From Alphaproteobacteria bacterium (lineage in GTDB: Bacteria > Pseudomonadota > Alphaproteobacteria > ATCC43930 > CGMCC-115725): DNA of 51,575 bases. This document shows positions 28,461 to 31,096 of the stretch, in pieces (position 1 is the stretch's first letter; the number at the start of each line of letters is the position of its first letter). The translations under genes were made by a program, and so were the position numbers. The stretch is from contig JASHNY010000107.1 of the NCBI GenBank assembly GCA_030041385.1, positions 1 to 51,575 on the forward strand. The letters run 5' to 3'. The notes beneath the pieces were generated by a model, which saw only the letters and a list, made by a program, of their open reading frames with translations, did not search any database and had not been told where the DNA came from.

Positions 28461-28616
28461 CGCACCCTCCCGAGGACCGGAGGGGTGATAGTTCCCGCAC
28501 CGCCCGCTGTCAATTTCGGCCGCTTGGCCGCGGCTCCGTGTGCCACCGCCTGCTCGCGAGAAGCGACGGCTGCGCCGGCGCATCTCCCTCGGGTGGACGA
28601 GGCGCGCCCGGCATGG

Positions 28617-28710
28617 CCAAAAAAAGGGCCGCCCGAAGACGGCCCAAGGCTGAGGGGAGGATGCCCACAAGGGCAAACGCGCACCGGCAGGGGCGCGTGA
28701 GCCTCAGCCT
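28617..28710 (-). ncRNA. Candidate structured small RNA with intrinsic terminator
   Basis: Read on the minus strand, GGCTGAGG (28709-28702) pairs with CCTCAGCC (28655-28648) to close an outer 8-bp stem. Inside are two hairpins: ACGCGC/GCGCGT (arms at 28693-28698 and 28677-28682) and GCCC/GGGC (28671-28674 and 28663-28666). Directly after the outer stem comes a strong intrinsic terminator (28619-28645). The fold of closed multi-hairpin domain plus terminator is what trans-acting RNAs look like. I cannot match it to a known family from memory, and promoter boxes upstream are not clear. No ORF covers it. Confidence 0.5.
28619..28645 (-). terminator. Rho-independent terminator, minus strand
   Basis: On the minus strand GGGCCG (28645-28640), an 8-nt loop TCTTCGGG, and CGGCCC (28631-28626) are followed by seven T residues (28625-28619). 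It is oriented to stop minus-strand transcripts before they reach the CoA-transferase genes. Confidence 0.85.
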
Positions 28711-28783: not shown

Positions 28784-28812
28784 TTGCATCCCTGCGGCCT
28801 GCGCCCGACATT
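28784..28812 (+). promoter_or_regulatory. Candidate sigma-70 promoter of the thi operon
   Basis: TTGCAT (28784-28789) and GACATT (28807-28812) are 17 bp apart, and transcription would begin near 28819, immediately before the 5' strand of riboswitch stem P1. The -10 match is modest (3 of 6); the placement is what makes it credible. Confidence 0.4.
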
Positions 28813-28820
28813 TGTTGGCA

Positions 28821-28917
28821 GGCTGGGGTGCTGCCCGGCAGCGCGGGAAACTGCGCGGTCGTGGCGGCTGAGATCAGACCCACTGAACCTGGCCGGGCAT
28901 GCCCGGCGAAGGGAGTC
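28821..28917 (+). promoter_or_regulatory. TPP (thiamine pyrophosphate) riboswitch
   Basis: The THI-element core is plain: GGGGTGC at 28825-28831, GGCTGAGA at 28866-28873, ACTGAACCTG at 28882-28891 and GCGAAGGGAG ending at 28915. Stem P1 can form between GGCT (28821-28824) and AGTC (28914-28917). The GGGAG (28911-28915) that serves as the ribosome-binding site of thiO is partly in P1, so ligand binding would hide it and repress translation. It controls thiO-thiS-thiG just downstream. Confidence 0.95.
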
Positions 28918-28921
28918 CGTC

Positions 28922-30096
28922 ATTACCACCCCAAACGACGCTTCGCAGCACCTCCCGAGCACGATCGTCATCGGTGCCGGGGTCATCGGCCTTGCCCTCG
29001 CCTGGCGGCTGGCCCAGGCCGGCTGCCGGGTCAGCGTCTACGACCGCGGCGAGGCCGGGCACGGGGCAAGCTGGGCCGCGGCCGGGATGCTAGCGGCCGC
29101 CGCCGAGACCGAGCCCGGCGAGGAGGCGTTGCTGTCGCTGACCCGCGAGAGCCAGCGCCTGTGGCCCGAATTCGCGCGCGAACTCGAAGCCGCCACCGGC
29201 CTGCCGGTCGGCTATCGCGACGAAGGCACGCTGGTCGTCGCGCTGAACCGCGACGATGCCGAAACCCTGCGCCATTCCTACGAGTTCCAGCGACGCCTTG
29301 GCCTCGACCTGCAATGGCTGTCGGCGTTCGAGGCGCGTCGCCGCGAGCCGCACCTGAAGCCGGGGGTCGCCGCCGCGGTGTTCAGCCCCGCCGACCACCA
29401 GGTCGACAATCGCTGCCTCGCCCATGCCCTGGTTGCCGCCTGCCGCGGTGCCGGCGTCGCCCTCTACGAGCATTGCGCGGTGCGCGAGGTGCTGTTTGCC
29501 GGCGGCCGCGCCGCGGGAGTCGCCACCGAGCGCGGCGACGCCCGCGCCGACATCGTCGTGTTGGCGGCCGGCGCCTGGTCGCGCGAGATCGCCGGCATCC
29601 CGCCGGCGCATCTGCCGCCGGTCCGCCCGATCAAGGGGCAGATGCTGGCATTGCAGATGGACCCGCGCGCGCCGCTGCTGCGGCATGTCGTGTGGGCCCC
29701 GCGCAGCTACATGGTGCCGCGCAGCGACGGAAGGCTGATCGTCGGCGGCACGGTCGAGGAGCGCGGCTTCGACACTGCCTTGACCGCGGGCGGCATGTTG
29801 GCGCTGCTCGAAGGCGCCTGGCGGGCCGTGCCGGCAATCGAGGAGTTGCCAATCGCCGAGACCTGGGTCGGATTCCGCCCCGGCTCGCGCGACGATGCGC
29901 CGATGCTGGGGCCGAGCGGGATCGACGGGCTCGCCGTCGCCACCGGGCATCACCGCAACGGCATCCTGCTGACTCCGGTCACCGCGGCGCTGATGAGCGC
30001 CTATGTATTAAGCGATCGCCTTTCCCAGCTGGCACGCCCGTTCGATCCTCGGCGTTTCGCGGCGCCCGGCGTTTCCGGGCAGGCGGAGGCGGCGCA

Positions 30097-30100
<4 letters not shown>
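28922..30100 (+). CDS. thiO: Glycine oxidase ThiO (apparent ATT start)
   Basis: ThiO oxidises glycine to the imine used in thiazole synthesis with ThiG and ThiS. The 392-residue FAD protein begins with the dinucleotide motif IVIGAGVIGLALAWRL, has the ASWAAAGMLAAAAETEP active-site region, GQMLALQ, and the C-terminal ATGHHRNGILLTPVTA. No ATG, GTG or TTG exists in frame between the riboswitch and the FAD motif. The only initiator that fits the GGGAG at 28911-28915 (spacing 6) is ATT at 28922-28924; the out-of-frame ATG at 28899 cannot serve. A single-base sequencing error (GTC to GTG just before) is the alternative. thiS overlaps its stop. Confidence 0.88.

Positions 30101-31096
<996 letters not shown>

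Follow-up and report, generated by a model that had tools for sequence, protein, structure and literature searches.

The window analysed here, a 51,575-nucleotide stretch of an alphaproteobacterial contig (JASHNY010000107.1), carries on its forward strand a thiamin operon made up of thiO (28922..30100), thiS (30097..30303; Pfam ThiS, 7e-14) and thiG for thiazole synthase (30326..31096; Pfam ThiG, 4.6e-101), with the GTG start of thiS overlapping the stop codon of thiO in a GTGA. The product of the first gene is a glycine oxidase-type FAD oxidoreductase (Pfam DAO, 5e-77), assigned to ThiO by its DAO fold, by the FAD-binding GxGxxG motif encoded at 28973 and by its operon with thiS and thiG. We found homologues of it in 54 of the 61 relatives searched, the best of them 71-79% identical, and, as the window's genome has no ThiH above the cut-off, ThiO is probably needed there. 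A TPP-type (THI-element) aptamer (28814..28931, forward strand) stands in front of the operon, and directly 5' of it we read by eye a putative promoter on the same strand (28784..28812) of the form TTGCAT-N17-GACATT, in which the putative -35 hexamer TTGCAT (28784-28789) is followed, beyond a spacer of 17 bases, by GACATT (28807-28812). A sigma-70 consensus scan left this putative promoter unscored and found none; a CTTGCA...(A)ATT arrangement occupies the same place, just before P1, in relatives from the family. Farther upstream, between CoA-transferase genes and thiO, the reverse strand holds a match to the suhB/mmgR sRNA (RF00519, 44.6 bits; 28611-28681).

The aptamer matches the Rfam profile RF00059 with 42.8 bits (E 3.1e-7), which is below the gathering score of 54.3 bits and leaves it absent from a gathering-threshold Rfam scan, whereas many canonical aptamers in the window's GTDB family, before thiO as well as before thiC, pass that score. 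It is also not visible in the minimum free energy fold of the leader (z -0.84). The P2/CUGAGA/ACC...GAACCUG core of the TPP riboswitch is nevertheless present, with the CUGAGA of the pyrimidine-side pocket (28868..28873) intact in the profile match and conserved in the leaders of relatives, and the operon directly 3' of it, thiO-thiS-thiG, is one in which such a riboswitch is expected. P1 consists of four pairs (U28824-A28914, C28823-G28915, G28822-U28916 and G28821-C28917). The Shine-Dalgarno sequence GGGAG (28911..28915) lies within the aptamer, and the original prediction, which placed all of it in P1, holds for A28914 and G28915 only: G28911 and G28912 belong to P4, so that the motif is divided between the 3' strands of the two stems.

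The pyrophosphate arm departs from the canonical form, as J4/5 is altered and P5/L5 (28893..28906) forms the derived loop CCGGG-CAUG-CCCGG where L5 is usually U-N-A-U. The window's genus and its sister genus together have 14 thiO aptamers, and the derived arm is found in every one of them: one J4/5 base has become G, and an L5 of G-C-N-N-G-C or a similar type replaces U-N-A-U; in seven of the 14, the position that we take to be C77 in crystal numbering has changed to U. The CUGAGA side is unaltered in all of them, and the aptamers that these genomes have before thiC are canonical. P3 is enlarged in these derived aptamers (window 28887-28915, L002-L013 and L031), which reach 31-43 bits where scored. 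Judged by sequence, the rebuilt arm may reflect a change of ligand or the loss of a tertiary contact.

The thiO frame of the window contains no ATG, GTG or TTG from the predicted start of the mRNA up to the FAD motif at 28973, and reading the frame from the riboswitch to the motif bore out the claim that had drawn attention to the locus. An ATT (28922..28924) stands six bases past GGGAG, as also claimed, which is a fitting distance for a near-cognate start. The frame stays open upstream, through the riboswitch, and its nearest canonical codon in that direction is TTG 28784, which, lying inside the putative -35 hexamer, is probably outside the mRNA. This open frame could accommodate a start elsewhere, be it TTG 28784 with translation through the riboswitch, a CTG inside the aptamer or GTC 28919, and the sigR gene of Streptomyces provides an example of a GTC start. 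We nonetheless consider such a start very improbable, not only because of the position of TTG 28784 but also because seven relatives (L002, L006, L007, L014-L016 and L023) carry, a few codons upstream, an in-frame TGA or TAA within the aptamer that rules out an upstream start in them, and because the codon before ATT or ATC is of seven kinds (GTC, GCC, GAT, GAG, AAG, CCG or GCG).

A thiO of this kind occurs in 30 of the 39 genomes of the GTDB family, and its start position is occupied by AUU or AUC (hereafter AUY) in 20 of these 30 genes and in 7 of 7 from the window's genus; the remaining ten have ATG (seven), GTG (two) or CTG (one). Relatives with ATG at the same spot include L012, L017 and L018. 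AUY starts recur in five further lineages outside the family: we found them in three genomes of the window's order (G038-G040), two of which consist of a single contig, in five members of another family (L039, L040 and L189-L191), and in L036, L065 and L081. Across 101 distinct leaders, each with an aptamer directly before thiO, the starts are ATG (44), ATT (20), GTG (13), ATC (11), TTG (9) and CTG (4), so that 31 are AUY and the other 70, nearly all at the identical spot, are canonical or CTG; ATA is not seen among the 101. In three Xanthobacteraceae metagenome-assembled genomes (MAGs; L092, L110 and L114), CTG is the likely thiO start, again at this spot.

The comparison of thiO 5' ends in close relatives, which had been proposed as the deciding check, thus finds ATT or ATC conserved in the genus, in the family and in other alphaproteobacterial lineages. 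It also bears on the suggestion that a single-base error has turned ATG into ATT, or GTG into GTC. Correcting such an error would restore a canonical start, and the window does come from a 264-contig assembly, but ATT or ATC stands at the same position in 31 separate genomes or MAGs and the codon preceding it is not conserved, which leaves a sequencing error with a negligible likelihood.

Several features indicate that AUY is here a start rather than a chance codon. In each of the 35 leaders with no canonical start close to the Shine-Dalgarno sequence, ATT, ATC or CTG stands 5-9 bases past GGGA, against a background in which ATT and ATC account for 1.5% of the remaining leader codons, and the spacing, most often 7, is the same for AUY as for the ATG, GTG and TTG of relatives. 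Flanking codons vary while AUY itself is kept. Moreover, ATT outnumbers ATC by 20 to 11 at the start, compared to 73 to 377 within the same genes (Fisher p 1e-8, uncorrected for kinship), a reversal that argues against an ordinary isoleucine codon. Seventeen leaders (15 AUY and 2 CTG; the window and 16 others), several of them with an in-frame stop within the aptamer, offer no canonical start at all in the predicted mRNA; the other 18 of the 35 hold an in-frame canonical codon inside the aptamer or farther downstream, but its place is not conserved and no suitable Shine-Dalgarno sequence accompanies it. An out-of-frame start followed by a frameshift was considered and rejected, as in AUY leaders the 16 bases past GGGA are free of canonical codons in every frame, the nearest being scattered at +18 and beyond. 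We are thus highly confident, from sequence comparison, that thiO is translated from AUU 28922, and we take this start to be real, evolutionarily kept and weak, and not a sequencing error.

To place this in context, we inspected other genes. In the same genomes, thiC has a second TPP aptamer, a separate Shine-Dalgarno sequence and, by inspection, ATG in 24 of 25 cases, the lone exception being TTG (L172); none starts with AUY. Some 40 further alphaproteobacterial genes under TPP control, in which the first codon follows closely behind the aptamer, have canonical starts, again by inspection, with at most one AUY. This one case (L285, in G131), an ABC transporter ATPase, has a possible ATT start 8 bases past the GGGA of its aptamer, and the first canonical codon to follow in its frame, a GTG, comes about 15 codons later. 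Non-canonical starts are detectable by this method, as the infC gene of the window's genome was found to have no ATG, GTG or TTG start and to begin instead with an ATA behind GAGGAG (L188:1465-1467, in G000:C43; preceded by GAGAGGAGAGCTTAC). Such a start is expected for the autoregulation of IF3.

The AUY start could be real yet serve no regulation, if a good Shine-Dalgarno sequence within the aptamer makes near-cognate starts tolerable and lets the codon drift among ATG, GTG, TTG, CTG, ATT and ATC. On a quick ThiO tree built from partial family and class samples in which many genomes are MAGs, the AUY label changes 10 times (shuffled mean 26.6), with at least 8 changes forced by well-supported branches, and the full set of start codons changes 29 times; AUY was thus gained or lost several times, as drift would have it, and the ATG relatives fit as well, showing that a weak start is not required. 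On the other hand, AUY is kept in 20 of the 30 family members even though a single mutation would yield ATG, ATA never appears, and AUY is found at most once among the roughly 40 other TPP genes with an embedded Shine-Dalgarno sequence and not at all in thiC, so that we regard drift without a role as a serious but doubtful explanation.

Alternatively, as the aptamer locks the Shine-Dalgarno sequence, the start codon may be the only element left with which basal translation can be tuned, and selection for low thiO output may have weakened it repeatedly. The almost invariant GGGA(G) of the thiO leaders and the non-ATG start of 57 of the 101 embedded leaders agree with this. A general rule that an embedded Shine-Dalgarno sequence always brings a weak start was rejected, since TPP-controlled transporter genes and others mostly use ATG, and a need for low output specific to thiO must accordingly be added; we hold this explanation to be somewhat less likely than not. 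A reason for keeping ThiO low could lie in the products of glycine oxidase, hydrogen peroxide and a reactive imine.

Under our reading of AUU 28922 as a real and weak start, control of the operon may be pictured as follows. With ligand bound, P4 and P1 would hide GGGAG, itself part of the aptamer; with ligand absent, the four-pair P1 would open and a 30S subunit could bind. The initiator tRNA would then read the near-cognate AUU with a third-base mismatch, which IF3 is expected to limit, and AUU would cap ThiO at a low level, as it probably would ThiS through the GTGA or ATGA overlap of thiO and thiS that most AUY relatives have. By analogy with known cases, we give these functional steps (a low initiation rate, IF3 sensitivity and ligand gating) about even chances of being correct; low, tightly gated ThiO with discrimination by IF3 would fit the precedents of cvfC1, ccpN and sigR. 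A bolder and rather unlikely extension is that AUU and AUC are a selected second gate of the riboswitch, in which slow, IF3-discriminated commitment lets the aptamer close again ahead of initiation and so cuts leakage, acting in the window's lineage jointly with the rebuilt aptamer, its changed pyrophosphate arm and perhaps its ligand preference. AUY starts are also found behind canonical aptamers, and start and derived arm are thus separable traits.

Few genes outside infC are known to have conserved AUU or AUC starts, and in the open-access papers searched we found none that describes them for thiO, where they occur in most of one family and in other lineages, always behind a Shine-Dalgarno sequence embedded in a riboswitch. 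Gene finders limited to ATG, GTG and TTG cannot place this start. The natural series of ATG, GTG, TTG, CTG, ATT and ATC at one position also constitutes a ready experiment on start-codon strength and ligand gating.

TPP riboswitches commonly sequester the ribosome-binding site in their aptamer core (Barrick and Breaker 2007, PMC2258182), and by sequence and context the window aptamer belongs to this class (RF00059), from which it differs in AUU/AUC initiation, in its score below the gathering threshold and in its derived J4/5 and L5. Near-cognate starts are likewise conserved in infC (AUU/AUA), Escherichia coli pcnB (AUU) and Staphylococcus aureus cvfC1 (AUU) and ccpN (AUA), and in S. aureus AUU and AUA starts with a good Shine-Dalgarno sequence give about 10% of the output of AUG (PMC13009471). 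The thiO start shares with these a weak AUN codon, a good Shine-Dalgarno sequence and conservation across species; however, they belong to regulators, processing enzymes or IF3, whereas thiO encodes a biosynthetic enzyme and has its Shine-Dalgarno sequence in a riboswitch. The Streptomyces sigR gene, whose GTC start IF3 represses (PMC5472188), is also the first gene of its operon, with a conserved non-canonical start, an overlap with the following gene in an ATGA and an expectation of mis-annotation (PMC5472188). It differs in its codon and in having no riboswitch, and dependence on IF3 has been demonstrated experimentally for sigR, whereas for thiO it is proposed by analogy.
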